54,801 nucleotides of DNA from Candidatus Zipacnadum vermilionense (lineage in GTDB: Bacteria; Armatimonadota; Zipacnadia; Zipacnadales; Zipacnadaceae): the NCBI GenBank assembly GCA_029821755.1, contig JALGSV010000021.1, forward strand, positions 1-54,801, in the 5' to 3' direction. Under the pieces are notes generated by a model. That model was not told the DNA's origin and searched no databases. It worked only from the letters and a program-made list of their open reading frames with translations. A program made the translations under genes and the position numbers. Shown in pieces: positions 20,132 through 51,932 of the stretch (position 1 is the stretch's first letter; every line of letters starts with the position of its first letter).

Positions 20132-20205
20132 TTCTACCGGCCGCCTGGGCGCGCCAAGTCGGGCAAGGTGAGTAGTTGCGATCCCGGATCAGCGGAGGTT
20201 TTCCA

Positions 20206-30100: not shown

Positions 30101-33100
30101 ATGCGTATCACGCTGCTTACAGTCTTGCTATTCACCACCGCCGCGGCCTTTGCCCGGCCTTATGGCAACGGCGACGTCATCCGCCTGAAGGAATACGTGG
30201 GAAGAGAGTGGGCCGACGAGCTCATTCATTACCCGCTCACGTTCACCCAGGGGGAGTTCCCGGGCGCGACAGTGCGGCTGCTCAGGAACGGGGCCGAAGT
30301 GCCCGCCCAGCTTGCCGAGGTGACGACCTACCCCGATGGCTCGCTGAAGACGGCGACGCTGTGGCTGGTGACCACTCTGCGCGCCAACGAGGTGCAGGAG
30401 CTGGTATTGCAGCCGGGTACGCCGACGGCGGCCGGGGACCTAGGTGCCGTCCGCAGAGACGGTGTGCTGGAAGTTACCACCGCCCTCACCGGCGCGCGCT
30501 TCAACCTGTTGGACCAGACCTTTGACCCGCCGGTCCCCGCCGAACAGGTGCCGCCCTATATCGCGGCCGTTCGCCAGCGCAGCGGCGCCTGGGGCGGGCG
30601 CGGCTGGTTCGAGACGCCGCATAAATGCCGCAGCGCCCGTGTGTGGGTGATGGAGGAAGGCCCGGTCTTCGTGAAAGTCGGCTTCCGGTATGCCTTCGAC
30701 GGCTATCGGGGGGAGGGGAAGGACATCTACCAGGGGTCCGTTCGCATCGCCGCCAGCCAAGAGTTGATCCAGGTCGACGAGGATTTCTCGCTAGGCGACC
30801 CCAAGGTCTACCAGTTCTGGAAGCCGAGGGACCGCGCCGACGAGATCAGTTGGGATTGGTGGCAATGGCGCCCGCACGACGCGGAGAGCAATTTCTGCTT
30901 CTCTCTCTACGACGGCCTGCGCCCGACGAAGGCGCGCTGGTTTGGTCATAGCGCCTCCCAGCCGGAGAAGCACACCGGCTCGGGTATCATGCAGCTTGAT
31001 ATTGAGACCGACTACCTGCTCACTTACAAGGCGACGCAGTTCGAGATCGATATTAACTCCCACCACGGCAACCAACCCGACCTGGGTCTGTCCTACTTGC
31101 TCTGGCGGGCGGAGGACCCGGAGAGCGACGCGCTCGCGGTGATCGGCTTGCGCCCTGTCGACTGGGTGCATCCCGACATGCTGCCGCGTACCAGCACCGC
31201 CATCAACCAACATACCAACACGGTGGAGCTGCGCGTCTACAGCACCGCGCAGCCCGACCTGGTGCTGAAGGCGCCGCTGCCCTTGGGCCAGCGCTCCTGG
31301 GGGCTCGTCACGTTGCGCATGCCCGAGGCCGCTCCGGTAGACGACGTGGAGAACGGCGAGGTGGTGAAGTACGGCTTCCAGAAGGGCAGCTCGCAGGCAC
31401 TACAGCTGCGCAACAAATATGGTAGCCGCCCGCTGGACAAGGTGAAGGACTGGACGCTGGAATGGCCGGTGGCGAAGAGCTTCCCCTCGCTGTTCATCAA
31501 GGAAGGCGGGCTGCCGGCGGTGCTCAACCGCATCCGTTCCAGCCAGACACTACTGAGCCGCGCGAAATCCCTGCGGCACAAGCCCATTAATCGCTATATC
31601 ATCAGCAGCACGCCGGAGAATGCGCAGGATGCCTACGCCGACCTGCTGCGCAACCTGGATGGGTTCATCAACGGTGTGTTCGACTGGGGGTATAACGCAC
31701 ACAACGTGGGCCTCAACATCAACCAGTTCCCCTGGTGGATGCAGGAGTACTCGGCGCAGTACGACTTGGTGATGGGCATGCCGGAAATCACCGTCGATCA
31801 GAAGAATACTCTGCGCGCCCATTTCTCCTTCTGCGCCCACATGCTGCACGACCCGAACTTCATGCCTCCGCGCGCGACGGGTGTGGGCTGGGGCTCGGCC
31901 AACATGCCCGTGAATATGCGCGGCGGGCAGGCGGTAACGGCCTGCGTGCTCTCGGACAACCCGGACGCCGAACCGTGGCTGAAGCTGGCGGTGGAGGTCG
32001 TCGACGTGCTGGTGCAAAAGGTCTGGTCGGAAGACGGTTCCAGCATTAGCGGGCCGCACTACACCAGCACCCAGGCCGACCCGCTGATGAACATGGCGCT
32101 GCCGCTGTACTACGCCGGCGCCATTCCGCCCATCCAGCAGAAATACCCGCGGCTGACCAGGTTCACTCGGTTGCTGATTGACCGCATGACCCCGCCCGAA
32201 CTGCGCGCCAGATATGTGCGTCTGCTGCCCACCATCGGCCACACCATGATGGAATACGACTGCAACATCGGCAAATACGCGCTGCTGATGAACTTGACCG
32301 ACCGCAAGTTGGGCGGGGAAGCCTACTGGATGTGGAAGCGCGCGGGCAGCGCGCTGGACGGCTTCATGGACGGCATCTACTACATGAACGACGATTTCGA
32401 CGAGCGCGAGCCCAACTGCAAGAGCGTCGTCTACCCCGGCAGCACTACCATTCTGCGCAACGGTTTCCCCCGCGAGAACGAGACCTACATGGCTATCCAC
32501 GTGGGCAACCAGGGCGTTGACCATTACGATCGCGATGTCGGCGCCTTCCTGCTCTACGCCAAGGGCGTGCCGCTGATGATGGACTTCAGCTCCATGTACA
32601 CGCCCAATTGCTGGCAAAGCATCTGGCACAACACCCTCACCTGGAACGTCGAGGAGCATCAGCACAAAACGCCGTGCCCGGGCCGCGACAACGGGTGTTT
32701 CTACACGGTGAACAAGCTGGGGTGGTTCGATCACGAGTATGAGCCTCACACGCTCTTCGACCGCGACGCGGACTCGCAGACGAAGGCCGCCGACGGCTAC
32801 AAGGAACTGGGTGGCGAAATGCCGGCGTACGCCTTCTCGCCGGAGGCGGACTACGCCCAGGCCTCTATCCCGCTGAGGGAGTTCCAGTTGTGGCCGTGGT
32901 TCGACCACGAGGAGTCAGAGAACCCCCAGGCGTGGTCCTCGTTCAGCGAGTTCCGCAAGCTACGGTTGCAGCGCCCCTACGAGTGGCAGCGCCGCTACCT
33001 GTTCATCAAGGACGCCGACCTGCAGGGGCCGAATTATTTCCTCATCGCCGATGACCTGGACGGCCAGGCGGAGTTGACTCCTCAGGCGAATTTCTGGTGC

Positions 33101-33781
33101 CTGGCCGACTCCCAGCAGATCACCGGCGACCTGGTGCGCTGGAAGGGGCAGTATGACCTGGACCTGGACATGTACGTGGCCTGGCCGAAGAAGCCGCAGA
33201 TCGGCACACGCGAGTGGTGGCACACGCAGCGCGGGCCGACGCGCGCCGACTTCAAGAACGGCCGGGAGTACCAGATCGCCGCTCACCTACATAACACGCT
33301 CGGCAACGGCGGGTTCACCGTGCTGCTGTACCCGCGCGGGCGCTATGAAGTGCAGCCGAAATACACCAGCACCGAGGATGGCAAGGCCGTCACCGTCACC
33401 ATCGGCCCCCGCACCGACCAGATCTTCTGTAGCCGCCAGCCGTTCAACACGACCGTTGGCGGGGTGGCCTTCGACGGCACCGTCGGGGTAGCGAAGCTAC
33501 ACCCGGACTACACCGCGCTGGTGCTCTGCGCACCCGGGGCCATCAGTGCCCGCGGCATCGGCATGGTCTCGGCGCAGGCGCCTCTCACCATCCGGGTCGA
33601 CGGCAACACCCTCACCGGCACCGCCATGGGCCAGGGCGAGGCCAGCCTCACCGTCCCCCAGGCCTGGGCCGGCCGAGAGCTGCTCGTCAACGGCGAAGCG
33701 GCCGGCGTCTTCGACGCCAACGGACACCTGGTCGTGAGCCTCCCCGGCGCCGGGGCCACGCTGTCCGTGGAGGGAAACTAG
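30101..33781 (+). CDS. secreted heparinase II/III-like polysaccharide lyase, paralog 1
   Basis: 1226 residues; ATG 30101 is chosen for its AGGGAG box and immediate signal peptide (MRITLLTVLLFTTAAAFA). Residues 25-130 are a beta domain shared with two other genes here (DVIRLKEYVGREWADELIHY; D/Y-x-L-x4-W-x2-E-[LP]-x-x-Y). The middle region, about 480-780, is helical, with WGSANMPVNMRGG and YDCNIGKYALLMNL, as in the (alpha/alpha) toroid of alginate/heparin lyases. Then comes the heparinase II/III-type sandwich: LRNGFPRENETYMAIHVGNQ, VDHYDRDVGAFLLYAKG, PLMMDFSSMY. The HYDRD-x-G-x-F motif carries the His/Tyr used for beta-elimination in that fold. Substrate unknown, likely an acidic or uronate-containing glycan. 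Aldo/keto reductase follows 22 bp downstream. Confidence 0.7.
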   Translation: MRITLLTVLLFTTAAAFARPYGNGDVIRLKEYVGREWADELIHYPLTFTQGEFPGATVRLLRNGAEVPAQLAEVTTYPDGSLKTATLWLVTTLRANEVQELVLQPGTPTAAGDLGAVRRDGVLEVTTALTGARFNLLDQTFDPPVPAEQVPPYIAAVRQRSGAWGGRGWFETPHKCRSARVWVMEEGPVFVKVGFRYAFDGYRGEGKDIYQGSVRIAASQELIQVDEDFSLGDPKVYQFWKPRDRADEISWDWWQWRPHDAESNFCFSLYDGLRPTKARWFGHSASQPEKHTGSGIMQLDIETDYLLTYKATQFEIDINSHHGNQPDLGLSYLLWRAEDPESDALAVIGLRPVDWVHPDMLPRTSTAINQHTNTVELRVYSTAQPDLVLKAPLPLGQRSWGLVTLRMPEAAPVDDVENGEVVKYGFQKGSSQALQLRNKYGSRPLDKVKDWTLEWPVAKSFPSLFIKEGGLPAVLNRIRSSQTLLSRAKSLRHKPINRYIISSTPENAQDAYADLLRNLDGFINGVFDWGYNAHNVGLNINQFPWWMQEYSAQYDLVMGMPEITVDQKNTLRAHFSFCAHMLHDPNFMPPRATGVGWGSANMPVNMRGGQAVTACVLSDNPDAEPWLKLAVEVVDVLVQKVWSEDGSSISGPHYTSTQADPLMNMALPLYYAGAIPPIQQKYPRLTRFTRLLIDRMTPPELRARYVRLLPTIGHTMMEYDCNIGKYALLMNLTDRKLGGEAYWMWKRAGSALDGFMDGIYYMNDDFDEREPNCKSVVYPGSTTILRNGFPRENETYMAIHVGNQGVDHYDRDVGAFLLYAKGVPLMMDFSSMYTPNCWQSIWHNTLTWNVEEHQHKTPCPGRDNGCFYTVNKLGWFDHEYEPHTLFDRDADSQTKAADGYKELGGEMPAYAFSPEADYAQASIPLREFQLWPWFDHEESENPQAWSSFSEFRKLRLQRPYEWQRRYLFIKDADLQGPNYFLIADDLDGQAELTPQANFWCLADSQQITGDLVRWKGQYDLDLDMYVAWPKKPQIGTREWWHTQRGPTRADFKNGREYQIAAHLHNTLGNGGFTVLLYPRGRYEVQPKYTSTEDGKAVTVTIGPRTDQIFCSRQPFNTTVGGVAFDGTVGVAKLHPDYTALVLCAPGAISARGIGMVSAQAPLTIRVDGNTLTGTAMGQGEASLTVPQAWAGRELLVNGEAAGVFDANGHLVVSLPGAGATLSVEGN

Positions 33782-33803
33782 ACCGCTTGGAGGTAGAGAA
33801 GCT

Positions 33804-34742
33804 ATGCTCTCGACACGACAACTGCCGCAGACCGACCTGCGCGTCTCGGCCCTCTGCTACGGCGCGATGGGACATGGCACCCTCGCTGACGGCGACCTCA
33901 GCGATCATCTGTTCGGCCTCTATCGCGACGCCGGCGGCAACTTCTTCGATACCGCGCACTGCTATAGCTTCTGGATTGAGGGCAAGCTGGGGGCCAGCGA
34001 ACGGGCGCTGGGCGCGGCGGTGGGCCGGGCACGCTGCCGCGACGCGGTGGTGATCGCCTCCAAGGGCGGGCATCCGGCGGCGGGCACGGCCTATCCGCGG
34101 CCGGACCGCTACATCGCGCCGGACCTCCTCGCCACCGACCTGGACGACAGCCTGTCGCGGCTGGGCATGGAGGTCATCGACGTCTACTACCTGCACCGCG
34201 ACGACCCGCGCGTGCCCGCCGGCGAAATCATCGAGATGCTCAACGCCGAGATCCAGCGCGGGCGCATTCGCTACCTGGGCGCCAGCAACTGGACCACCAC
34301 GCGCATCGCCGAGGCCAACGCCCATGCCGAGGCCCACGGCCTGCAGGGGTTTGCTGCCTCGCAGCCGCGCTGGAACCTGGCGCAGGGCAACCCAGGCGGC
34401 GATCCCACCATGCGCACACTCACGCCGGAGGATGCCGCCTGGCACCAGGAAAGCGGCCTGCCAGTGGTGCCCTACACCTCCACCGCGGCCGGCTACTTCG
34501 CGGGCCGCGAGGTCGCTGCCTTCGACAACCCGGTGAGCCGCGCCCGCCGCGAGCGCGCCATCCAGCTGGCCGCGAAGCTGGGCTGCACCGCCAACCAGCT
34601 CGCTCTCGCCTGGCTCCTGCACCAGCCCTTCCCCGTGGTGCCCATCATCGGCACCGTCCACCCGGAGCACCTGACCGATGCCCTGGGCGCGGTGAAGGTG
34701 ACGGTGACGCCCGAGCAGGTGCAGTGGCTGCTTGACGGGTGA
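33804..34742 (+). CDS. aldo/keto reductase
   Basis: 312 residues from ATG 33804. All four catalytic residues of the family can be placed: Asp in NFFDTAHCY (near 48), Tyr of the same block (near 53), Lys in IASKGGH (near 84) and His in YYLHRDDP (near 129). RYLGASNW, LAWLLHQPFPVVPIIGT and a C-terminal substrate-like loop complete the NADPH-dependent (beta/alpha)8 fold. No signal peptide, so cytoplasmic. Placed 22 bp behind the lyase gene, it probably reduces a sugar-derived aldehyde or ketone, for instance an unsaturated uronate product. That role is inference; AKR substrates cannot be read from sequence. Confidence 0.85.
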   Translation: MLSTRQLPQTDLRVSALCYGAMGHGTLADGDLSDHLFGLYRDAGGNFFDTAHCYSFWIEGKLGASERALGAAVGRARCRDAVVIASKGGHPAAGTAYPRPDRYIAPDLLATDLDDSLSRLGMEVIDVYYLHRDDPRVPAGEIIEMLNAEIQRGRIRYLGASNWTTTRIAEANAHAEAHGLQGFAASQPRWNLAQGNPGGDPTMRTLTPEDAAWHQESGLPVVPYTSTAAGYFAGREVAAFDNPVSRARRERAIQLAAKLGCTANQLALAWLLHQPFPVVPIIGTVHPEHLTDALGAVKVTVTPEQVQWLLDG

Positions 34743-34845
34743 GGTAGGCCCTCGGTTCTGGTTCGCGCGACCATCTCTAGTCGAACAGGACTACGCAGAC
34801 CGGCGTTCCGAGCCGAGATTGCTTTCCTGTGCTCCTTCGCGCCAC

Positions 34846-36705
34846 TCAGCTTCCCAGCGCCAGCCAGCGCAGCAGCGTCGCCATCGCCGACGGCCACTCG
34901 GGTGACTCCCAGTAGGGCGTCTCTCCCCATCTGGGTTCACCCATCGGCGTCAGCTCTGGCCGTGAGCGCATGCATCCACATGGCCACCGGGGTCTGCTTT
35001 CCCCATGCAATCATCGCCAGCGGTGTTCCGGGCGCCGCGGCCAGGCGTGTTCCGTTCTCCAACGGGCGCAGGTCGTAGGCATCGGTCAGCCCCACCGGCA
35101 GGAGGTCGTTGAGCGCGGCGCTTTCGTGGTAGCGGCCGCGCCCAAAAGCCTGCGGGCCGCCGAGGAACAGGACGGCGCCGCCGTTCTCGACGTAGGCCTT
35201 GAGCATACCGGTGCCCTGCTCGCCGATCATGGCTCCGTATGCGATGTTGTTGAAGACGATGACATCCTGCTTCATGATCTCCGCGTAGTCCCAGGGCGGG
35301 ACGCTGAGCATCTGGATGTCGCCAACGTCCTTGTAGTACGACGGCACCAGTTCGTGCTCGCCCAGCCTCGCCGCGGCGGCCTCGACTTGCCACAGCTTGT
35401 AGTACAGGCCGCGCAGGTGCATGATCCGGGGTCGCTCGTTCTTGACTTTTGTAAGCACGGGCGGCTTCACGATCTGCCGATGCCGGGGCGGGGCGGGGAT
35501 CGTGTAGCCTTCTACGTGTTCGCCCGGCTCCTTACCGGTTCCCGTCCCGGCGTAGGCGAACTCATAGCGCTCTTCCCAGCCGTCCCCCTCGATGTTGACC
35601 TGGATGATGAACGGCTTGCCCGCCTGGCCGGGGAACTCCGCCGTCACGCGCCGTGGCTCCCGGCCGAGACCATCCACCTCGCTCACCGACGGTTGCGCAC
35701 CGATGGCCAGGCTGCGGTTGAGCCAGGCCAGCGTGGTGGTCACCTGCGCGGGCCCTAGCGGCTCCGGCGCCACCAGTGCGTGCTGCACGCACAGCGTCCC
35801 GTCCTGCGCCGACACCTGCAGGTCAGCGGCCAGGCGGGACGAGGCATGGACAACAGAGGTCAGGCCCTCGATGAGCACGGCGCTCGACCGCGTGGTCCAG
35901 CTCATCCCGCCTGGCAGCAGCACCTGCTCGAAGAAATACTCGGAGGTGGAGCGCCCGCAGTTGTAAAGCGCCCACAGGGCGTTGTAGTCCATGAGGAACG
36001 CCAGCCCCACCCGGTCCTGCGGGTCGACGCCCGCCGTCCAGCCGGCAACGAGATCCTTCGTCCAATCGTTGGCGGGAACCACGACGTGCAGGCCGCGAGC
36101 GGTCGGCTTAGTCATGACCTGCCGGCTCTCCGCGCCAGAGTCGCCGTCCGCGCGGTAGTTGTGCTGTTGCCAGTAAGTGAACACCTTACTGGCGGTGTCC
36201 GGATTCTTCAGTTCCACCTCGCACTCGACGACCGGCCGATCGGCCGGCAGCGTCAGGGTGCGAATGACTCTAAGGCCCGCCACGCTCGCGTTCACCGATC
36301 CCCCCACTGGCCCGTAGACAAGCAGGACACGCGCACAGACGCCTGCCCAGGGCCGGCCTCCACCACCTCCACCTCGTAGGGCGCATCGAGGAACTCGCCC
36401 GGCCAGTTCTGCTCGTAGAAATGGTCCATGAACAGACCGCCGTTGGCAGCGTCCGTGACCATTTCCCAGTTGTTGCGCTTGACGATGAAACTGGAAACCC
36501 TCCCGCCCCGGGCCGGGCTCACGGTCGCGCGAATCCACTCGTTTTCCAGCACGGCAACTCTCTTGTCGCCTTGTGCAATGATCGTCGCGGTGGCCGGAGC
36601 TGCGGCGGCGCTCGGCGTGGACAGGGCCAGCGCCCCGAGGAGGAGTGTCAGCAAAGCGATGTGTCTGCGTGGTACCAATCCGCATGTCCTCGTGACGTTC
36701 CTCAT
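34846..36705 (-). pseudogene. secreted GATase-like protein, frameshifted and with an internal deletion near the C-terminus
   Basis: ATG 36705 (GGAGG seven bases upstream) opens a signal peptide (HIALLTLLLGALALS) and a galactose-mutarotase-like sandwich (VAVLENEWIRATVSPARGGR). At a run of six Gs (36300-36305) the frame must change by one base to continue from STGQWG to SVNASVAGLRVIRTLTLPAD. The C-terminal domain (DVIVFNNIAYGAMIGEQG, AYVENGGAVLFLGGPQAFG) is class I amidotransferase-like and matches the next gene (MIHDFVKAGGGLLVVGGPF). Its frame ends at 34937 after MWMHALTARADADG. In another frame the counterpart of the neighbour's C-terminus follows: GEPRWGETPYWESPEWPSAM and LLRWLALGS, stop at 34846. 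So about 35 codons have been lost just before it. Last gene of a three-gene operon. Confidence 0.7.
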
Positions 36706-36727
36706 CTCGGTGTCCTCCATCGGGGCG

Positions 36728-38044
36728 TCATTGCCGTGGTAGCAGCCACTGCACGACGTTTGTCATCAACCTGGGCCAGTCCGACCAGTTCCAGAAGGCT
36801 GTCGCCCCGGCGGGCGGCTCCCCGAGCACGGTGATAGTGAGCGCCGCCACCCGGCCTTTGCCAAATTCCCAGACGACCAGCGCGGGCTGGCCGCCGGCCG
36901 TCATCTCCACCGTTGCGCCCGGCTTGGGCTTTGCCTGGTGCATCCACAAGACCAGGGGATCGCGCCCCCAGGCCAGTCCCTGCTTGGGGACGCTCCCCGG
37001 CCCGGGCTGCAGGGGAGCCGGCGCCAGCAGCGGCTTGAGGTCGTAAGAGCCGGGAATCGTCACCGGCAGCAGCGGCGCCAACAGGTCGCTGCGGTCCAGG
37101 GCGCCGCGGCCGGAAGCGAAAGGCCCCCCCACGACCAGCAGTCCGCCACCCGCCTTGACGAAGTCGTGGATCATGGCCCGCTGCGCCACCGTCAGGCACT
37201 CCGCGTCGGTGTCGCCCAGCACGACCAAGTCATAGCCCAACACTGTGTCATAGGGACGGGACCGAAGGGGTGGCGTGAGACCCTCCTCCTCGCCAGCGAG
37301 AGTGTCCGGGCGCTTCTCCTCCGCCTGCTGGCCCTGCAGTGGCACTCCAGCCAGCCCGCTCCCGCGCTGGCCGCGAACAACATAAGCGTAGTCCACCATC
37401 GCGCCCATGCGCTGCAGCAGCGTGTGGAGGCGATAGTGCTGGTAATACAGCCCTTTGACAAACCAGACACGGGTGCCCTCGTGGAGGAGCAACTTCGGGT
37501 TATCCGGTCGCTCAAACTTCGCGAACGTCAGTTGCTCCAGCTCCGTATAGAGGCGCTTGCGAATCACCATTACCCGGTCAATCCAGGCTGGGTGACCGGC
37601 AAGCTTGCGGACGACGCAGATGTTGAGGACCGGGGTCTGAATGGTGAACGGGTAGACGAATTCCTGGTACTCGCCCGATTCTCTGAAGTCGGTGCCGCGG
37701 GGGTGTTCCCACACTCCGCCGTTCTCCACGCCGAGGTCGAAAAGCAAATCGCGGCCGGTATTGTCCTCCACCTTCAGGCGGAAGCGCGCCTCGTACTCGC
37801 CGGGCAGGTATTCCATGGTGTAGCCGGAGGTGAACGTAGGCCAACCCGACCACGTCTTGCCAGACGTCGGGCATTCCAGCGCCTTGCCATCCAGCGCATC
37901 GGGATCATCGACAAGCGTGACCTCTGGATCGCTCGACCCCGTCGCTTCGTAGACCCACGTGGTCTCGGCTTCCTGTGCGTGCCCGCACGCCCATGCCCAC
38001 AGCAGCAGCAACGCCGACATGGCGACCACCGCACTGCGGCGCAT
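36728..38044 (-). CDS. secreted protein with C-terminal GATase-like domain
   Basis: 438 residues. ATG 38044 lies one base after the stop of the GH66-like gene (TGAGATG), so the two are likely translationally coupled; GGGAGG is the ribosome binding site. Signal peptide VVAMSALLLLWAWACGHAQ. Residues about 25-165 are a beta-sandwich (YLPGEYEARFRLKVEDNTG, WIDRVMVIRK), like a carbohydrate-binding module. Residues about 190-438 are a class I amidotransferase-like Rossmann domain (YDLVVLGDTDAECL, FVKAGGGLLVVGG, VVWEFGKGRVAALTITVLGE). The nucleophilic Cys of true amidotransferases is not seen at the expected turn, so it is more likely a ligand-binding or trimerisation-type domain, as in some GH42 and ThuA-like proteins. 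The damaged neighbour at 34846-36705 is a paralog. Confidence 0.7.
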   Translation of the reverse strand: MRRSAVVAMSALLLLWAWACGHAQEAETTWVYEATGSSDPEVTLVDDPDALDGKALECPTSGKTWSGWPTFTSGYTMEYLPGEYEARFRLKVEDNTGRDLLFDLGVENGGVWEHPRGTDFRESGEYQEFVYPFTIQTPVLNICVVRKLAGHPAWIDRVMVIRKRLYTELEQLTFAKFERPDNPKLLLHEGTRVWFVKGLYYQHYRLHTLLQRMGAMVDYAYVVRGQRGSGLAGVPLQGQQAEEKRPDTLAGEEEGLTPPLRSRPYDTVLGYDLVVLGDTDAECLTVAQRAMIHDFVKAGGGLLVVGGPFASGRGALDRSDLLAPLLPVTIPGSYDLKPLLAPAPLQPGPGSVPKQGLAWGRDPLVLWMHQAKPKPGATVEMTAGGQPALVVWEFGKGRVAALTITVLGEPPAGATAFWNWSDWPRLMTNVVQWLLPRQ

Positions 38045-38045
38045 C

Positions 38046-39902
38046 TCACCGCCTCCCCTCAAAGACCACGACGGTCCAGTACTGCAGTTCGGGCACGGTC
38101 ACCGTGAGACCGCCCTCCACGGGAGCAAGCGGCAGCGGGGTGCTCATCGGCCCGTCGGCCCCATCAGCGGTCAGCGCCAGCGCCCTGGTGATCGTCACCC
38201 CGGCAGGCGGAGCGAGGCGTACGGTGACGTTCTGCTGCGGCGCCGGCACGGCGTTCTTCTCATCGTAGCGCTCGCCGGTGGAGGGGTTGATGAGATGCAC
38301 GATGATCTGCGTCGACTTATCGGGCAGGTCGCGACGGCGCACGTACTCCTGCCACCAGATCTCGCCCGGCCCGGTGACGGTCAGCATCTTCGGTGAATCG
38401 CTGATGAACTGCAGCGTGTCATCGTAGAGTAAGCCGCAATAGCGGGCGTACAGGCGCATATAGGGCCAGTAATCCGGGGACGCAGCGTAGCACAGATGCA
38501 TGCCCGCCCCCATCAACACTCCGTACAGAATGCAGTTCTCGGGGCGCGGAGTCGCCGGCGTAGCGGCATGCGTTCGGTCGCCAGCAATACCCACGATGCC
38601 GTAAGGGAAGCCGCCGGCCTGGCGCACCGTGGGAATGGCCTGGCGCAGGTAGTCGCGCAGGAACGCCCAGTTGTTCAACCTCCCGCCCGGTTGGGTGATC
38701 TCGTTCATCCCTTCGTACATCACCAGCCCGCCGCGGGCGGCCTCCGCGCGCCACTTGGGCGAGGCCTGGGTGATATCCGTGTGCCAGCCGACGTTATCCC
38801 CGTAGATGAAATGCGCCACCGCCTTCTCGCCATCCGTCCGGATCCGGCGCACCAGGTCAGCCTCCAGCTTCGGGATATCAGTACCTGGCTTGACGGCGGG
38901 CTCACCGTGGATGTCCTTCACGTCGTCCACGTACCAACCGGCATTATCAAAGCGGATGCCGTCCCACCCAAACTGCTTCAGGGAGCCGACGATCTGGGAG
39001 AGGCCGAACTCCGCGACCTCGGGCTTCGCGATCAGCGGGCAGATGGCCCAAATGCCGCCGTCCCTTTGTTCCTTCCATTTGCCGTCCTGGAGACTCTCCT
39101 CCTCGGTCCAGTCCAGCACTTCGACATCGAACTTGCAGCCGTACCAGTCCTGCCCCCAGTGGTACCAGTCCGGATGCTGGCGTGCATGCTCGAACCCGAC
39201 CGGGCCCACCGCCCACTTGTCGGCATAGATGACGATCCATCCGCCCAGAGCATGCACGGTATCCGACATCTCCTGCATGCCCTGAAGGCTATCGAAGCGC
39301 CCGGCCTGTCCCGACGTCCAGAACTCCCTCTCCGTGGTCAGTTCGCTGAAGTCGCACGGCGCCCAAAAGGGCGTCTCCGCCATACAGAAGTACTGCTCCC
39401 GCATGCGCTGCGCTCCCCGCTTCACCGACTCGCCCCACCAGTCATGGCGGTGATCTGTTGCCGCCGTCGTGATGGTCAGGTGGCCGATCTTCAGCGGCGA
39501 GTCGGTCACCATGAAGAACTCGCGTGCACTGGAATCCGGCTGTCCCTCGACGGACAGGACCGCACGCGCCTCGTACCCGTACTCAGCGCCCTCGGCCTTC
39601 TTGCCCGTGGTGAACGGGACCGTGACCTCTTTGGTTTCCCCAGCGGTCAGGTCGAGGGGCTCATCGTAGACTGTATCCTCGCGATCCAACCGACTGCCGA
39701 GGATGACCCTCAACCGCGCTGACCGTGGCGCATTGTCTGCGTTGCTGACGGTCACAGCGATCGTGCCGGGCGCGGCGAACCCATACACCAGCTTATCGGG
39801 CCAGACTCTGTTCACCGTGACGCCGGTCGCGGCCCACGCAAGGCTGCCGCCGATGACCCAGGCCATCACCACTAGTCCAAGTTGCCCATAGACCCTCATC
39901 AT
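38046..39902 (-). CDS. secreted TIM-barrel glycoside hydrolase, GH66-like
   Basis: 618 residues from ATG 39902 (GGAGGG six bases upstream). Signal peptide QLGLVVMAWVIGGSLAWA. Residues about 28-135 are an Ig-like N-domain (IAVTVSNADNAPRSARLRV). The barrel (about 140-520) contains WIVIYADKWAVGP, FEHARQHPDWYHWG and FGWDGIRFDNAGWY; the Asp of RFDN fits a retaining nucleophile at the end of a strand, and MYEGMNEITQPGG may give the acid. A C-terminal beta domain (VHLINPSTGERYD) closes it. The layout recalls GH66 dextranase/cycloisomaltooligosaccharide enzymes, and more loosely GH27/GH31-like barrels. Substrate uncertain. First gene of the minus-strand operon with the two GATase-like genes. Confidence 0.7.
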   Translation of the reverse strand: MMRVYGQLGLVVMAWVIGGSLAWAATGVTVNRVWPDKLVYGFAAPGTIAVTVSNADNAPRSARLRVILGSRLDREDTVYDEPLDLTAGETKEVTVPFTTGKKAEGAEYGYEARAVLSVEGQPDSSAREFFMVTDSPLKIGHLTITTAATDHRHDWWGESVKRGAQRMREQYFCMAETPFWAPCDFSELTTEREFWTSGQAGRFDSLQGMQEMSDTVHALGGWIVIYADKWAVGPVGFEHARQHPDWYHWGQDWYGCKFDVEVLDWTEEESLQDGKWKEQRDGGIWAICPLIAKPEVAEFGLSQIVGSLKQFGWDGIRFDNAGWYVDDVKDIHGEPAVKPGTDIPKLEADLVRRIRTDGEKAVAHFIYGDNVGWHTDITQASPKWRAEAARGGLVMYEGMNEITQPGGRLNNWAFLRDYLRQAIPTVRQAGGFPYGIVGIAGDRTHAATPATPRPENCILYGVLMGAGMHLCYAASPDYWPYMRLYARYCGLLYDDTLQFISDSPKMLTVTGPGEIWWQEYVRRRDLPDKSTQIIVHLINPSTGERYDEKNAVPAPQQNVTVRLAPPAGVTITRALALTADGADGPMSTPLPLAPVEGGLTVTVPELQYWTVVVFEGRR

Positions 39903-40053
39903 CGTGTTCCCTCCGTGGCAGTGCTTAGCGCAGTGGACGAGTATGGACGCTATCGACCATGGCGACTACCGGTAGCGTCACCGGTGTGCCTGTGAGGCAG
40001 TACTGTACGTCCTGCGGGAAGCTGGGGCGCATCGCCCTGTGAGGACAGGTGTG

Positions 40054-40059
40054 ATTATA
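40054..40059 (-). promoter_or_regulatory. possible -10 box (TATAAT) upstream of the GH66-like operon
   Basis: A consensus TATAAT on the minus strand about 150 bp before ATG 39902. No good -35 hexamer stands at the right distance, so this is a weak call. The rest of 39903-40135 holds nothing else I recognise. Confidence 0.25.
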
Positions 40060-40135
40060 TCCGTTGGCCGGAGAGCTACGCCTCCTAAGAGATACTCGCG
40101 GCAAGCAGGGCCTCAGAGCCTGGTCGCTGTCCCGG

Positions 40136-40423
40136 TCACTGCTGCCGGCTGGCTGGTTCCTGGCTGGTCAAGGTCAACTCCCCGCAGGCGGCCTCGCCTC
40201 CGGCGAGCAGCGTCACTTGCGTCTGTCCGTCCGCCCAGCGCTTGGCCACTGCCGCCGTACCGGAGAGCCGCACCGGCCCGTCAGTCACTGTGACCGGGTC
40301 CTTGCTGAGCAGGATCCAGTGCGTTTGGTCGGGCAACGTCACCTTGAGGAGGCGTCCGTCGGCCAGCGTGGTGATTGCCAGCACTCGGGACATGGGGGAC
40401 ACTTCCTCTCGCTGGAGTGTCAA
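40136..40423 (-). pseudogene. C-terminal scrap of a heparinase-like paralog
   Basis: The 95-codon frame reads AITTLADGRLLKVTLPDQTH, WILLSKDPVTVTDG, VRLSGTAAVAKRW and VTLLAGGEAACGELTLTS. It lines up with the last 75 residues of the protein at 40801-44148 (YTSLADGKGVKVVTPKGTDW, VFLSDEPVQWTGEG, LSFSGTAGAIRQ). Only the last beta domain survives, in inverted orientation to that gene. No ribosome binding site or signal peptide. The stretch 40424-40800 beyond it shows no gene. Confidence 0.6.
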
Positions 40424-40800
40424 CGGCGGGGACGCTGGTCTTGTCCTCGGCGTTGTGGGGCTTGGCGGTGGCCTGGTGGGTATGATGGGTTAGTCTTCCC
40501 GCCTCCGTCGCCGACGGTTCCTCGATCTGTTTGTGCTGGGAGTCGCCTTCAGGCCATCTCGCTCTTCCTTGGCGTTGGGGCCCACAGGTCCCCGGTTAAC
40601 GGAGATTCAGAATCCTACGGGGAGGGAAGAGGCGTCTCCTCGGGGAAGACTCCCTCGAGCCCCCCAGTTCCACCTCTTCGTGACGGGGGGCGATGGCCAA
40701 GCGTTGCTGACGACGAGCCCGCCGGGATCCCTCGGGTAGGGAGCAACGCTCACAACCAGATGAAGCACGACCCACAATCGAAGGGGAGGGGCACACGATA

Positions 40801-43800
40801 ATGCGGAAGCTTCTTGTGGCAGGCATCTTGATGGTGTTAGTGGCGACGGCGGGGCAGGCGGACATGATCTTCACGCTCCAGGACTACTTGCACCACCAGT
40901 GGCGCGATGAGTTGGTGACATATCGGGTGGACAAAGGGAAGGTGCCGCGCCCGGCGCGGCTGATGGGGCCGAGGGGACAGTTTGTCCCCGTGCAGATACG
41001 GGACCTAGGCCAAGAGGCTGAAGTGGCCTTCATCGTTCGCGATCTGCCGGCAGATGGCGAGGTCACCTACACATTGACTGCCGGGACGGCCATTGGCCGG
41101 CCCCTGACGCAAACGCTCAGGAACGGCCTGCTGCTGGACGCCGGTGAGGTGGCGGCCCTGGTGCCGGGGGTGGGCGAGGAGAGGCCCGCCGGCAAGACGC
41201 TGGCCGAGGTGCGGGCGCCGCTGCTGGGAGTGCGCACGGCGGGGGGCCAGTGGCTGGGTTCGGGGCGACTGGTGGGCGACCTGCCGGTCAAGTCCATGCA
41301 GACGACTCTGGTGGCCTCCGGGCCGGTGTACGCCGAAGTGCGCACTGACTACGTGGTGGAGGGTGGACGGTACTCGATGACCGTGCGCGTGGTAAAGGGC
41401 CAGCCGGCAGTGCTGGTGTCCGAGGAGTTCGACATGCCCGGCACGGCGGCAGAGAAGTGTTTCTTCCAATACGACCTGAAGGAAGGCTTCGAGCCAGAGA
41501 GGCTGGCCGTTCTGGGGCGGCTGTGGCGCCAGCGCACCGACGCCACCAAGGTGTGGATGGACGCCGTTAACCAGAGCCTCGGCGAGGGTGGGGACGACTA
41601 CAAACTAGACTTCGACGCCGACCGACGCGAGGTGGCCTGCATTGGCTACGTGACCTGGTGGCCGGAAACGGTACGGGTGATGGCCCTGCACGCCAGCCCC
41701 ACCGGCCAGACGCTCGCCTTCTTCCCCACCCGCATCGGCCAGTGGCGCAACCCCATGGGCTGCTACCTGGAGACTCGCAAGGACGGCAGCCTGTACCTGT
41801 CACTGCCCTTATACATCCAGCAGAGCTGGGCCAATGACGGGGTGGGCGGGCGCGGCTCCTTCGGCAGCGGCAGTCTCGAGAGCGGCTGGCCGCTCACGGC
41901 GCTGCGAAGACATTGGGCCATGATCCTCACCCCGGAAGAGGAGGCCTTCCCCGCCGTCGGGCGATCGTCCGTAGGGGAGGCGGTCGTCAAGTACTCCGAC
42001 CTGCCGCTGGATAAGCTCAAGGACTGGATCTTCAACTGGGACTGGGACGGGGTGAAGTACCCGCGGCTGTATGTGGACCCCGACAAGCTGGCGGAGACGC
42101 GAGTGCGAGCCCAACAAATCCCGGGGTGGGACGCGGGCCTACGCACCTATCCTACGCGCCCCCTGACCTATGTGCTTACCGGGGACCCCGAGGTCGGCGA
42201 CGAGTTGCTGCACGCAGGCGTGCCGGAGCAGAACGCCTCGTGGTATGCCAACGCCGGCGCCCTGCCGGGCTTGCGGTTCTACGTGTCGAACATTCTCGAT
42301 AGATGGGGCTACGTCGGCTTCATGGCTCCCAACAACGCCGCGCCAATGAACGAGCTGGTGCGCTTTGACGCCGCCATGTCCGTGCCGGAGGCCACCGAGG
42401 CCGAGAAGGCGGAGATGCAGGAACTGACGGCGTTCGTGGCCCAGGTCGTGTACGACACCGACTGGCATGCGGTAGGGGCCGGCTGGCATCTGGGCAATCC
42501 CAACATGCCGCCCCGGCAGGAGGCCCACTTGGGCGTGGCCTCCCGGACGCTGCCCACGCACCCCCTGGCCGCCGCCTGGGCGGCCCGCGGCGCCGCGCAG
42601 CAGGAGCGCTCGCTGCGTGAGCAGGTCAGACCCTCCGGGGCCTGGATCGAGTGCCCCCACTACCAGTATGAAGCAGCTTTCTACCCAATGATGCAGGCCG
42701 CGATGCCTCTGAAGCTGCAGGGCACCTACGACGTCTTCGCCAATCCGCTCCTCAAGAAGACGATGGTCTACCTGGTCAACCTGCTCACCCCACCCGATCC
42801 GCGCTTCAAATCAGGGGTGCAGAAGCTGCGTACGCTACCGGCTTTCGGCAACGGCTCGTGGGAATTCATGCCGGTCACGGGCTGGATCGCAGCCATGTCG
42901 GCCCAAGACGACCCTGAGTTCTCCCAGGAGATGATGTGGGCCTGGGAGGAGCAGGGCGGCCAGCTCTGGTTCCCGATGAGTCAGTTGGTAGTGGACCCGG
43001 CACTGCCGGGGAAGCAGCCCGACTTGACGAGTAGCCTCTATGAGGGTTTCGGCGCGGTGCTCCGCTCCGGATTCCCCTCGGAGGACGAGACATGGATGGC
43101 CTTCCGCCACGGCGACTGCGTGGCCCACTACGACTATGGCGACCAGGGGAGCTTCATGCTGTTCGCGAAGGGAGCGCCGCTAGTGCTGCATTTCGGCTCG
43201 CAGTACGCTCCGTCCTTCCAGGGCGCCTGGTACTATAACCGGGCCTGCTTCAACCACCGGCCAGTCACGGCGGCCGACACCGAGGTTTTCAAGATGCTGC
43301 AGGAGTATGAGCTAGACCCCGCCAACTTCTCGCTAGGGACGGAGGCCTGGGCCGAGACAGAGGGCGGCTCGTATGTGATGAGCAACCGCGGCTTCTTCAC
43401 CGGCGTGCAGGCGGACTACGCGCGGGGGGAGCAGGTGCAGCGGGCCCAGGCGGCGGTAGGCAAGACGCCCGACTACCGGCAGCCGGGCAATAGCCCGCTG
43501 CCGACCATCTCCATTCCCGAGACCCACTGGAACCGGCGGATCGCTCTACTCAAGGACGCGGATCCGCTGGCGCCCAACTACTTCGTGATCCGCGACGACC
43601 TGATCGGGCAGAGCGGCTATCCCGGTGAGTGGAACATCTGGGCCCTGGCGCAGGACGTGCAGTTCAACGCCAATCAGGCGATAGTGACCAGCAAGTACGG
43701 CGTGCTCATGGACGTATTCATGGCTGAGCCCCTGCAGCCGCAGTGGTCCACGCAGCAGACGTCCCACAACTTCCTCGCCGGTCCCTCCAGCCAGTACGCA

Positions 43801-44148
43801 GTGGACAAGCCTTGGCAGGAGACGCTGACCAATCTGCGAGCGAAGCAAGCGCCGGGGAAGGGCTTCCTGGCAGTGCTCTACCCACGCAAGGCCGACGAGC
43901 CCCTGGCCACCTACACCTCTCTCGCCGACGGCAAGGGGGTCAAGGTGGTCACGCCTAAAGGCACCGACTGGGTCTTCCTGAGTGATGAGCCGGTGCAGTG
44001 GACCGGGGAGGGGCTGTCCTTCTCCGGGACGGCCGGGGCGATCCGCCAGGCGGGGGACCAGTGGACAGTGGAGTTCTTTGAGCCAGGCGAGGCCACGGTC
44101 AACGGGAAGACTATCAAGGCCGACGAGCCACAGGAAGTCGTGCTGTAG
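40801..44148 (+). CDS. secreted heparinase II/III-like polysaccharide lyase, paralog 2
   Basis: 1115 residues from ATG 40801, with GGGGAGGGG upstream. Signal peptide LLVAGILMVLVATAGQA. N-domain FTLQDYLHHQWRDELVTY matches paralog 1 at 30101. Helical centre with WHLGNPNMPPRQEAHLGVAS and IECPHYQYEAAFYPMMQ. Lyase-type sandwich: LRSGFPSEDETWMAFRHGD, VAHYDYGDQGSFMLFAKGAP, LHFGSQY, in which the HYD-x-G-D-x-G-S-F block carries the presumed catalytic His and Tyr. The C-terminal beta domain is the one whose scrap is found at 40136-40423. About 110 residues shorter than paralog 1. Exported; substrate unknown. No obvious co-transcribed partner: recombinase debris follows. Confidence 0.7.
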   Translation: MRKLLVAGILMVLVATAGQADMIFTLQDYLHHQWRDELVTYRVDKGKVPRPARLMGPRGQFVPVQIRDLGQEAEVAFIVRDLPADGEVTYTLTAGTAIGRPLTQTLRNGLLLDAGEVAALVPGVGEERPAGKTLAEVRAPLLGVRTAGGQWLGSGRLVGDLPVKSMQTTLVASGPVYAEVRTDYVVEGGRYSMTVRVVKGQPAVLVSEEFDMPGTAAEKCFFQYDLKEGFEPERLAVLGRLWRQRTDATKVWMDAVNQSLGEGGDDYKLDFDADRREVACIGYVTWWPETVRVMALHASPTGQTLAFFPTRIGQWRNPMGCYLETRKDGSLYLSLPLYIQQSWANDGVGGRGSFGSGSLESGWPLTALRRHWAMILTPEEEAFPAVGRSSVGEAVVKYSDLPLDKLKDWIFNWDWDGVKYPRLYVDPDKLAETRVRAQQIPGWDAGLRTYPTRPLTYVLTGDPEVGDELLHAGVPEQNASWYANAGALPGLRFYVSNILDRWGYVGFMAPNNAAPMNELVRFDAAMSVPEATEAEKAEMQELTAFVAQVVYDTDWHAVGAGWHLGNPNMPPRQEAHLGVASRTLPTHPLAAAWAARGAAQQERSLREQVRPSGAWIECPHYQYEAAFYPMMQAAMPLKLQGTYDVFANPLLKKTMVYLVNLLTPPDPRFKSGVQKLRTLPAFGNGSWEFMPVTGWIAAMSAQDDPEFSQEMMWAWEEQGGQLWFPMSQLVVDPALPGKQPDLTSSLYEGFGAVLRSGFPSEDETWMAFRHGDCVAHYDYGDQGSFMLFAKGAPLVLHFGSQYAPSFQGAWYYNRACFNHRPVTAADTEVFKMLQEYELDPANFSLGTEAWAETEGGSYVMSNRGFFTGVQADYARGEQVQRAQAAVGKTPDYRQPGNSPLPTISIPETHWNRRIALLKDADPLAPNYFVIRDDLIGQSGYPGEWNIWALAQDVQFNANQAIVTSKYGVLMDVFMAEPLQPQWSTQQTSHNFLAGPSSQYAVDKPWQETLTNLRAKQAPGKGFLAVLYPRKADEPLATYTSLADGKGVKVVTPKGTDWVFLSDEPVQWTGEGLSFSGTAGAIRQAGDQWTVEFFEPGEATVNGKTIKADEPQEVVL

Positions 44149-44399
44149 ACCGCGTGCCCGACGCCAGGCGCGAGTAAGCGAAGCGGCGGCGAAGGTTGAG
44201 AGGCCTGCGCCGCCGGTGTTCCGGAGTGCAGGAGGCGGGGGAAGAAGGGACGCGAGGCTTCAGAGCTAACACCGCGAACCAGGCGGAGGGACCACACCAG
44301 GAGCAACTGACCTCCCCCATGCCGCATCGCGAGGCCCCGCGGCGGGAACTGGCGGCATACGTGGGAGCGCTGGGGGAGGCGGCCGACCGGCGCGAGTCC

Positions 44400-44818
44400 A
44401 AACAGCGCTGGCGCGTCGCCTGCGCCTGTGGACACTCCTCAGCCATTTTGCCTCCACCACCGTGGGCCGAGGCGAGCATCTCCCTGGCGTGGCGAACACC
44501 ATCGCTGACCGGCTGGAGTTCCGGCCTGAGGTGGGGCACGACTACCTGTTCACGGGTCGGGAAGGCAAGCCGCTGTCGATCAAGGGGATTGTGCGGGCCT
44601 TTGAGTTGGTGAAGCGGAGGGTGGGGTTGGTCCGCGAGGGGGTGACGCTGCACACGCTGCGGCATACCTTCGCGACCATGCTGCCGCAGGAGGGGTGCGA
44701 CCTGGTCTCGATCAAGGAAATGCTCGGGCATGCCGACCTGGCGACGACCTCGATCTACCTGCACGTCTGCGCGCCGCACCTGCAGGCGGGGGTGGCGCTG
44801 CGTCCGCTTGGCGGGTGA
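44400..44818 (+). mobile_element. tyrosine recombinase/integrase remnant
   Basis: The frame ending at 44818 reads VGHDYLFTGREGKPLSIKG, LHTLRHTFATMLPQEGCDLV, SIKEMLGHADLATTSIYLHV. H-x-x-R, LGH and the nucleophilic Tyr of the XerC/D-type core are present, but the first catalytic Arg and the arm/core-binding domains are not. The bases 44149-44400 before it hold no recognisable gene. Confidence 0.65.
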
Positions 44819-44834
44819 CCTTCGAGGGGAAAGA

Positions 44835-44867
44835 GCAGGGGGGCTTGTGATCGAGCAGCCCCCCTGC
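44835..44867 (-). terminator. hairpin terminator between integrase remnant and winged-helix gene
   Basis: Perfect 11-bp stem (44835-44845 with 44857-44867) and an 11-nt loop. On the minus strand it is followed by TCTTTCCCC, 40 bp beyond the stop of the winged-helix gene. It may also serve transcripts from the left. Confidence 0.6.
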
Positions 44868-44906
44868 GGCGCGGTTATTCAGTTGTGTGTCAAAGTCCCG
44901 TTCGGG

Positions 44907-45254
44907 CTAGTTGTGGTCGTATGGACCAGGAAAGTTGGCGATCATGCCGTCCAGAGTTTCGAGGAGAACGCTCAAGCTTTCTACCCGTCCTAAAATGGAT
45001 GCTCGGAACCTCGCGATGTCGGCGACATCAGTTGCGAGGTAGTATCCTTTCAGGTCTGAGTTCGACGCCATGATAGGGTAACCCAAGAGGCGAAGCCGCC
45101 GAATCGCGTCGCGTACGGCGACGTTCTCGCGGGTGATCGGCAGTCCGGCACGGGTGCTGATCACATCGCTCGTGATGGCATTCTCGGGACCTACTGCGGA
45201 GGTCTGCATGACCTCCAGAATTGCGTCGTCTACAGGTACAGCTGTCGTAACCAT
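44907..45254 (-). CDS. small winged-helix DNA-binding regulator
   Basis: 115 residues from ATG 45254 with a strong AAAGGAGA box. The region NAITSDVISTRAGLPITREN, VAVRDAIRRLRLLGYPIMAS, GYYLATDVADIARF has the length and pattern of a winged helix: a short N-terminal helix, a recognition helix around VRDAIRRLR, then a two-stranded wing ending in GYYLA. A C-terminal helical tail (FRASILGRVESLSVLLETL) may serve dimerisation. Similar small proteins are found in phages and integrated elements. It is transcribed away from a divergent promoter at 45301-45329, with a 14-bp palindrome between them. Regulation of its own and the divergent promoter is inference. Confidence 0.6.
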   Translation of the reverse strand: MVTTAVPVDDAILEVMQTSAVGPENAITSDVISTRAGLPITRENVAVRDAIRRLRLLGYPIMASNSDLKGYYLATDVADIARFRASILGRVESLSVLLETLDGMIANFPGPYDHN

Positions 45255-45276
45255 ATGAGTCTCCTTTGGCCCGTTC

Positions 45277-45290
45277 CCGGGCCGGCCCGG
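45277..45290. promoter_or_regulatory. 14-bp palindrome, candidate operator
   Basis: CCGGGCCGGCCCGG is its own reverse complement. It starts 22 bp upstream of the winged-helix start codon and ends 10 bp before the divergent -35 box. In GC-rich DNA such a palindrome can occur by chance. Confidence 0.35.
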
Positions 45291-45300
45291 TGTGGGCCTA

Positions 45301-45380
45301 TTGCAGGAGGGCTCCCCGGATGCTAAAATAGCAGTGTCGCGCTCGCCCGGTGCAGGAGGAGTATCTCAGGTGGCAAGCCT
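45301..45380 (+). promoter_or_regulatory. orphan promoter and ribosome binding site, divergent to the regulator
   Basis: TTGCAG (45301-45306), 17-bp spacer, TAAAAT (45324-45329); then AGGAGGAG and a GTG about eight bases on. The frame from that GTG stops after some ten codons (ASLGCVQCA), so the original target gene has been lost. Confidence 0.4.
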
Positions 45381-45410
45381 GGGATGCGTTCAGTGTGCAT
45401 GAGTGACCTA

Positions 45411-45702
45411 CTACCTTGCAGGGATGGGGCACTCATTCTCCTTGTTGGGTTGCTCCCCACGTGCTATGCTAATTGACCTCCTCGCGCATCCTCCGACTGA
45501 TCGTTGGGGGATTGCTCCTGGGTCAAGGGAGACTCGGGGGACGGCGGCGCGCTGTATTTCGTCGAGGTCGTAGTTCAGGTAGCGGATGGTCGTCCCTAGA
45601 TCCTCGTGGCCGAGGAGGGCCTGTACTTGCCGGATGTTGAGGCCGCTGTCGAGCCAACGCTTGGCGGCGAAGCGGCGGAGGCTGTGGAGAGAGTAGCGGT
45701 TG
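45411..45702 (-). mobile_element. tyrosine recombinase C-terminal fragment
   Basis: Frame: NRYSLHSLRRFAAKRWLDSG, LNIRQVQALLGHEDLGTTIR, YLNYDLDEIQRAAV, stop at 45411. H-x-x-R, LGHEDLGTT and the Tyr of the catalytic core are visible. The upstream part is replaced, exactly at about 45702, by IS3 orfA sequence. It differs in sequence from the integrase remnant at 44400-44818. Confidence 0.65.
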
Positions 45703-45936
45703 CGCCTGGTCCGCCACGATCCGTTTGAGCCGCGCATTCTCTTTCTCCAGCTCCCGGAGCCGTTTGGCCTGATCCACCCGCAGCCCCCCGTGCTCCTTGC
45801 GCCGGCGGTAATAGGTCTGGTCGGTTATCCCTAGCTTGCGGCACACTACCCCGACCGTGCCCCCCTGGGCTAATTCCACCTGCGCCTGTCGCAACACGTC
45901 AATGATCTGCTCCGGCGCGTACCCCTTGCTTGGCAT
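45703..45936 (-). mobile_element. IS3-family orfA remnant
   Basis: From ATG 45936: MPSKGYAPEQIIDVLRQAQV, ELAQGGTVGVVCRKLGITDQ, TYYRRRKEHGGLRVDQAKRL, then ELEKENARLKRIVADQA. This is the helix-turn-helix and leucine-zipper part of IS3 (IS407-type) OrfA. The gene is cut after ADQA. The element's outer end probably lies near 46010-46018, where TGTCCTTGCCCCCGG can be read on the minus strand; no second inverted repeat was found. Confidence 0.7.
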
Positions 45937-46018
45937 CCTGCTTGCCCCTTTCTTCCTGCGCCAGCTTTCCCTATACTGACCTAACAGTTGGACTTGTTTC
46001 CGGGGGCAAGGACAAACC

Positions 46019-46915
46019 ATGACTTACCTCAGCATCCAGTTCCTCGCAGTTGCGCTGGTCGGGTGCCTGCTCGCCGCCGGCGTCTGCCGCGCGGCGACGC
46101 GGGAGTATGTACTGGAGGACCTTCTGAACAAGCAATGGACGCGGGAGCCACTCTCGTATGCCCTGGAGGCGGAGCAGGGGACCTGCGATCCGGCCTCCGT
46201 GCGCTTGCGCGGGCCCGAGGGGCCGGTCGGCTGCCAACTAAGCGACGTGGTGTTGTGGCCGGGGACGCAATCGCTGAAGTCGGCCAACCTGTGGTTTGTC
46301 ACGGACCTGGCTCCGCTGGCAAGGAAGATCTTCACGGGGGAGTACGGCCCGAAGCCCCCGGCGGAGGCGGGCGCGACTACGGACCTGCACGTCACGGTCA
46401 CGCCGCAAGGAACCGAGTCCGTCAATGATCAGTTCGGTGTCCGCCTCATGCGGGGGGAACAGCGCTACGCAGAGCCGGTGCCCGCGAGTCAGGTCCCCGG
46501 TCCGGTCTTGGGGATGCGCCTGGCGGAGGGGACCTGGTTCGGAGGCAGCGACCTTTACGGGGAGATGAAGGTCAGCGGCTACAGCGCCACGCTCACCGCG
46601 CAGGGCCCGGTCTTCGCGGAGGTCACTTACCACTATACCTACGCGGATGGCAACTCGCTGCAACTGGCGGTGCGCCTGGGGATCGGTGACTGCGCGCGCG
46701 AGTTGCACGTCGCCCGGTGCGACCCCGGCGCCTGGGTGAAGCTGGTGGGACAGAACGGGTGGCATGAGCTGCTGCCGGTGATGAAGTCCGCCGAGGGCGA
46801 CGTGTGCGTGGACCTAAACCTGGCGGCGGGCGCGGTGGGAGGCGTGCGTAAGTTCGCTATCGGCGAGAGCGCGCCTACCGAGGCGGTCGGCTTGCGGCCG
46901 CTGCGCGACGGCTAG
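46019..46915 (+). pseudogene. N-terminal stump of a heparinase-like lyase, paralog 3
   Basis: 298 residues from ATG 46019. Signal peptide SIQFLAVALVGCLLAAGVC, then YVLEDLLNKQWTREPLSYAL, matching FTLQDYLHHQWRDELVTY and RLKEYVGREWADELIHY of the full-length proteins. Further matches: VRLRGPEGPVGCQLSDVV and ANLWFVTDLAPLARK (compare ATLWLVTTLRANEVQ in paralog 1), and SATLTAQGPVFAEVTYHYTY. It stops at RPLRDG, before the helical toroid and the catalytic sandwich. The IS3 remnant lies directly in front of its start codon, so expression may now depend on that end. It cannot be an active lyase. Confidence 0.65.
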
Positions 46916-51700: not shown

Positions 51701-51932
51701 AGCGAGGCGGGCGCGGGAGGGGAGGGCGCCTCCTCCCGAGGTGCCCTGGGCTCGGAGCAGGACAGCACCAACGGGCTGGTGCTGTCCCTGGGAGCGGAGG
51801 TAGAGAAGGTGGCGCTGACGAGAGGGTAGGAGGAGGCGAGCGTACAACCGCGCCCGGCGTCCGCACGCTACCATGCAGGAACGACGCCCATTTGGCATAC
51901 GCAATCCCGAACTGAGAAAGGACAGAGGGCAG

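Follow-up and report, generated by a model that had tools for sequence, protein, structure and literature searches.

The stretch of 54,801 nucleotides analysed here (the window) is part of a 4.39-Mb, 95% complete assembly of Candidatus Zipacnadum vermilionense (G000; contig C73), and carries three genes and one remnant of a single protein family (Table 1). Genes A, B and C are real open reading frames with signal-peptide-like N termini, and the kinship proposed for them in the initial annotation was confirmed by BLASTP: A and B align over nearly their full length (236 bits), and C aligns with A and B over the N-domain only (50-65 bits). The signature said to mark this N-domain is common to all three genes, but its spacing needs correction to L-x7-W-x2-E-[LP]-x2-Y, as the L-x4-W form occurs only in the third. 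A C-terminal scrap reported near position 40136 also proved real. It lies in an open frame on the minus strand (40139-40489) and shares 66% identity with the C-terminal end of L138, a homologue in genome G142. Elsewhere, the nearest paralogue of B is L026 on contig C104 (76% identical), and A has two orthologues, L013 and L014 (76% identical).

Gene C is 50% identical to L046 and L024 over residues 24-235, and its nearest relatives belong to a clade that lacks the histidine of the HYD block discussed below. It is probably a truncated family member, and may have been cut by mobile-element activity. The interval between B and C (44200-46020) contains tyrosine recombinase fragments, along with a transposase gene of OrfA-like type.

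Table 1. Features of the window and related loci. Residue numbers refer to gene A unless stated otherwise.
Feature	Position	Strand	Basis
Neighbour family of ~1120-1190 aa	window 20176-23643; L045:191-3559; L018:721-4293; L030:13232-16585; L031:10026-11999		
Gene A, full-length, putatively secreted PL26-like/heparinase-like chimera, 1226 aa	30101..33781	+	ORF; family profile E 0; orthologues L013/L014
RIFT-barrel-like domain, residues 26-110, PL26 domain-1 type	30176..30430	+	hhalign Prob 99.1; weak PF19501 match at 30236-30349; AF2 pLDDT 78-93; Foldseek PL26 5xqg
Beta (super)sandwich-like domain, residues 111-430, PL26 domain-2 type	30431..31390	+	hhalign, AF2, Foldseek, VIA-align; confidence good over the first half, pLDDT low over the second
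Predicted helical (alpha/alpha) toroid, ~residues 441-770, boundaries approximate	31421..32410	+	Profile match to PL39, PL15, PL21 and PL17 structures; low-confidence predicted helices
Asn601, aligned with PL39 Asn186, candidate charge neutraliser	31901..31903	+	Profile alignment; PMC12088678
Tyr654, aligned with PL39 Tyr239, candidate catalytic acid/base	32060..32062	+	Alignment; PMC12088678
Predicted antiparallel beta-sheet domain, ~residues 771-1226, holds HYD block	32411..33781	+	Profile vs PDB; low-confidence model
His808, HYD block, aligned with PL39 His405	32522..32524	+	Alignment
C-terminal beta domain remnant of another family member, 79 aa	40139..40378	-	Family profile E 5.3e-17
Gene B, full-length, 1115 aa, triad Asn568/Tyr621/His776	40801..44148	+	ORF; family profile
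Tyrosine recombinase C-terminal fragment, mobile-element debris between B and C	44462..44818	+	PF00589 E 1.5e-18
Transposase OrfA-like HTH gene, adjoins gene C	45523..46020	-	PF01527 E 4.6e-14
Gene C, N-domain only, 298 aa	46019..46915	+	Profile positions 10-231, E 9.8e-63

The initial annotation credited the family with an N-terminal domain of its own. An extra N-terminal domain is indeed present, but it is not peculiar to this family. The family profile also matches the middle of 1100-1750-residue proteins in other Armatimonadota, in a stretch that Pfam labels PcRGLX_1st (a RIFT barrel) and PcRGLX_2nd (a beta-sandwich), which are the first two domains of PL26 exo-rhamnogalacturonan lyases. 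In a profile-profile comparison (hhalign), the N-terminal half matched proteins bearing PcRGLX_1st/2nd with Prob 99.1 and E 4e-19 over ~200 columns. Across G000, PF19501 matched family members only, gene A among them, at E ~0.02, which is under its cut-off. An AlphaFold2 model of residues 26-430 of A, built from five sequences, reached a pLDDT of mostly 70-93 over its first ~200 residues and was poor over the remainder. When this model was compared with the PDB, Foldseek placed PL26 structures at ranks 1 to 13 (best E 2.4e-8), and VIA-align superposed ~300 residues on PL26 residues 28-493 with a Z-score of 11.8. Z-scores of 11-12 were also obtained for sandwich domains of GH38, LacZ, PL4 and mutarotase, many of them covering mainly residues 88-384; we favour PL26 over these on account of its Foldseek ranks, a match that spans two domains, and the sequence profiles. 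Searching the N-domain profile against PDB sequences yielded nothing convincing, and it was the fold search that brought PL26 to the surface. Altogether, we conclude that the N-terminal ~400 residues are homologous to domains 1 and 2 of PL26. The proteins thus resemble PL26 PcRGLX (5XQG) and YetA-like proteins in these two domains, by profile and by fold, and differ from them in that a heparinase-type toroid and C-terminal beta domain stand in place of the PcRGLX_3rd toroid (PF21346), for which no match was found in 33 members at E<=0.1. As a separate observation, the PL26-like domains of the Armatimonadota proteins L072, L075, L073, L069, L085, L078, L071, L077 and L070 (1100-1750 aa) begin mid-chain, after several hundred other residues.

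The remainder of the chain had been described as heparinase-like, with a toroid, a sandwich and an HYD block, and profile matches to solved lyases bear this description out. When the family profile was searched against the PDB, the best match was the PL39 alginate lyase 6jph (E 8e-19), followed by heparinase III, 5jmd (E 2e-15), PL15 (3a0o, E 4e-11; also 6lja), PL21 (2fuq, E 6e-9) and PL17 (7bjt, E 8e-7), so that homology to a toroid plus antiparallel beta-sheet extends to five PL families at E 8e-19 to 1e-5. An AlphaFold2 model of full-length A from five sequences had a pLDDT of 35, and the toroid assignment is therefore based on the sequence profiles alone. According to these profiles, the residues that follow the N-terminal ~400 are the (α/α)-toroid and antiparallel β-sheet lyase fold of PL12/15/17/21/39. 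The HYD motif itself differs from the HYD-x2-G-x-F first given for it, as it reads HYD-x3-G-x-F in A and HYD-x4-G-x-F in B.

These matches raise the question of whether A and B are simply ordinary members of an existing CAZy family such as PL12, PL39 or an unclassified PL, with a known accessory domain as N-terminal extension. One member in G000 (L048, on contig C20) does exceed the 22-bit cut-off of Hepar_II_III_N (PF16889) with 29.8 bits, which puts the catalytic half on the margin of an already known superfamily, and at E<=0.1 Hepar_II_III_N and Hepar_II_III_C touch 6 and 4 of 33 members, respectively, with the NCBIfam HepC model touching 3 of the 33. Against this, no Pfam model, Hepar_II_III_N included, matches A or B at E<=1, and the NCBIfam matches at that threshold consist of two chance-level rows and nothing relevant. 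Among solved structures none matches over the full length, the known lyases covering just the toroid and some of the sandwich. The PL39 alginate lyase of Defluviitalea (6JP4/6JPH), the closest of them, aligns over the toroid and the beginning of the beta domain, ~400 profile positions (423-821 of 1119). It leaves the ~400-residue PL26-like module uncovered and is separated from the family by a distance beyond the reach of Pfam. Heparinase III of PL12 (5JMD) and its relatives in PL15, PL17, PL21, PL33 and PL35 share the fold class, but they offer no full-length match, have another N-terminal module, and are represented here by weak Hepar_II_III_N/C matches. Given also a methionine at the position of the alginate-marking His187 (see below), we consider membership in an existing family unlikely. 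A strong full-length match to an existing PL family, which the initial annotation had named as the result that would overturn its proposal, did not emerge from Pfam, NCBIfam or solved structures.

The window had been noted for holding four copies of the family. These are indeed homologous, but they represent only 4 of ~41 loci in the genome. Using A as a query, tblastn found 91 matching stretches in G000, and a family profile of 33 sequences found 64 matches. The latter sort into ~37 near-full-length genes, 4 more that are interrupted by a contig end or a frameshift, and around 12 shorter fragments. This amounts to ~41 loci and roughly 3% of the DNA of the genome. Two long members contain internal stops (C1:103471 and C18:61842). 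Internal stops or frameshifts also break L020, L021, L017 and L046, and such broken members suggest ongoing gene decay, or assembly error.

The catalytic residues of PL39 are Asn186, Tyr239 and His405, and the same combination of Asn, Tyr and His is found in PL35 and in PL12, where it comprises Asn240, Tyr294 and His424 (PMC12088678). In profile alignments, the PL39 residues correspond to Asn601, Tyr654 and His808 of gene A. A census of 100 full-length homologues from seven genomes found the complete triad in 77, with Tyr kept in 99, Asn in 93 and His in 81. Most of the 19 homologues without the His, one of which lacks it merely because of a gap, fall into one 16-gene clade and a clade of 3. 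Some of the family may therefore be non-enzymatic, and the two His-less clades may have another role. A broader version of this idea, in which much of the family is non-catalytic and consists of glycan-binding proteins or decaying copies, could also draw on the fragments, frameshifts and internal stops seen at several loci. We think it doubtful, somewhat more so than membership in an existing family, since A and B themselves have the full triad and the three residues are retained together in most of the homologues. Moreover, dN/dS values of 0.18-0.22 (A vs L013, A vs L014, and B vs L026) show that A and B are under purifying selection.

We propose that A and B are secreted composite lyases, each joining a PL26-type module to a heparinase-type unit, which beta-eliminate uronate polysaccharides and belong to a family of ~41 loci. 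We consider this proposal likely to be correct. The homology of both halves, the conservation of the triad, the multiplicity of the genes, their intermixing on the tree, the transfer of gene A and the purifying selection come from direct computation; catalysis, secretion and substrate class are what we infer. As in PL12, PL35 and PL39, the Asn (601 in A, 568 in B) would bind the carboxylate of the uronate and neutralise it, the HYD-block His (808 in A, 776 in B) and the Tyr (654 in A, 621 in B) would act as base and acid, and the glycosidic bond at O4 of the uronate would be broken through beta-elimination. The PL26-type module would probably shape, line or extend the substrate cleft. Alternatively, the proteins could be uronyl C5-epimerases or other non-lyase enzymes built on a lyase fold, as is human dermatan sulfate epimerase; in DS-epi1, C5-epimerisation takes place on a related fold of bacterial-like type (PMC8006597). 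The Asn-Tyr-His triad is that common to lyases, though no residue test in this analysis separates a lyase from an epimerase, and a multi-copy set of putatively secreted proteins with a PL26-type module, in a bacterium rich in other glycan-degrading genes, argues against this alternative, which we regard as improbable.

As for the substrate of the proposed lyases, the residue after the triad Asn is Met in 89 and Phe in 10 of the 100 homologues, in place of His187 of alginate lyases. Alginate specificity of the PL39 type is thus not expected, and alginate appears less likely as a substrate. The window also encodes a GH106 rhamnosidase and a protein of rhamnogalacturonase/pectate-lyase fold, which hints at rhamnose-containing acidic glycans. 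At other family loci the neighbours include fucosidase, sulfatase and lectin-like genes, and a census of neighbours found no consistent substrate partner across loci. Two families recur in these neighbourhoods. One, of uncharacterised proteins of ~1120-1190 residues with only weak PHP or ABC_transp_aux matches, occurs near lyase paralogues at five loci (Table 1). The other consists of large proteins with weak GATase1_like/GH66-like matches, encoded at 34937-39902 of the window and by 10 other ORFs (e.g. at L015, L017, L032 and L045), with 13 members in one similarity cluster. Further along the window lie an aminoglycoside 3-N-acetyltransferase family gene (47552-48580; Antibiotic_NAT, E 6e-42) and a gene for a right-handed beta-helix protein with matches to the GH141 insertion domain (51873-54434).

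In a survey of 251 genomes of the phylum Armatimonadota, near-full-length members were confined to a few: many in G000, G142, G068 and G097, several in G033, and one each in G017 and G115. G142 belongs to the same genus as G000, and G068 and G097 to another family of the phylum; G110, a 90% complete genome of the same genus, had no match. A scan with the peptides of gene A, sensitive to close relatives only, found L013 and L014 in Armatimonadota metagenome-assembled genomes (MAGs). Separate searches gave no relative on viral contigs and, among plasmids, one distant match in Arthrobacter (27% over part of the protein). Distant relatives in G112 (L079:3686-6166), G013 (L080:1270-5226) and G079 (L081:4015-7224) keep the order of N-domain then toroid with almost no Pfam matches, and are a possible outgroup of the family.

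A FastTree phylogeny of 100 members contained 52 changes of genome label, compared with an average of 51.9 when labels were shuffled. This intermixing indicates that the copies are mostly not recent within-genome duplicates, and that the subfamilies are old and common to the genomes. For many of the G000 copies the best match lies in a different genome. For gene A the comparison can be made at the DNA level: it shares 79% identity with L013 over 3.6 kb, the similarity does not extend beyond the gene, and the two loci have no flanking gene in common. Their dS of 0.71 is below that of RpoB between G000 and its genus-mate G142 (0.92), and the genome that carries this homologue has an RpoB protein only 51-57% identical (G000 vs G068). 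Taken together, these results show that lateral transfer of gene A is well supported. Extending lateral transfer to the whole family is the simplest reading, though repeated loss could also account for the pattern. The copy number and the mixing of genomes on the tree could in principle be artefacts of contaminated or mis-binned metagenome assemblies, without any lateral transfer. The genomes that we traced by name are MAGs, and one of the genomes, G097, consists of 780 contigs at 78% completeness. However, several of the genomes have an estimated contamination of 1-4% and tens of copies each, spread over many contigs, some longer than 100 kb, and the orthologues of gene A come from two separately named MAGs. 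We therefore judge mis-binning very improbable. On our reading, subfamilies that diverged long ago were probably passed between distant Armatimonadota and would equip each of these genomes with a set of enzymes for different acidic glycans.

The initial annotation had suggested that this may be an undescribed family, which is plausible as judged against Pfam, NCBIfam and solved structures. The folds are all known; the combination, the absence from the models searched, and the multiplicity appear to be new. A search of one literature library returned no paper on a PL26-like/heparinase-like fusion, none that mentions both heparinase and Armatimonadota, and none on PcRGLX by name. In its strongest form, this reading describes a new PL family in which PL26 domains 1 and 2 are joined to a heparinase-type unit, with dozens of ancient subfamilies held in a lateral pool of the Armatimonadota, each probably adapted to an acidic glycan of its own, and with one clade that lost the His and was repurposed; we hold the chances for and against this full picture to be evenly balanced. 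Function, structure and mechanism have been investigated in fewer than half of the 44 PL families listed by CAZy (PMC11848413). If a family of ~41 loci in one genome carries no Pfam or NCBIfam name, much of the turnover of environmental carbohydrates could escape annotation. The fusion is also relevant to the recombination of lyase modules, and a common gene pool would provide many natural variants for testing the determinants of substrate specificity.
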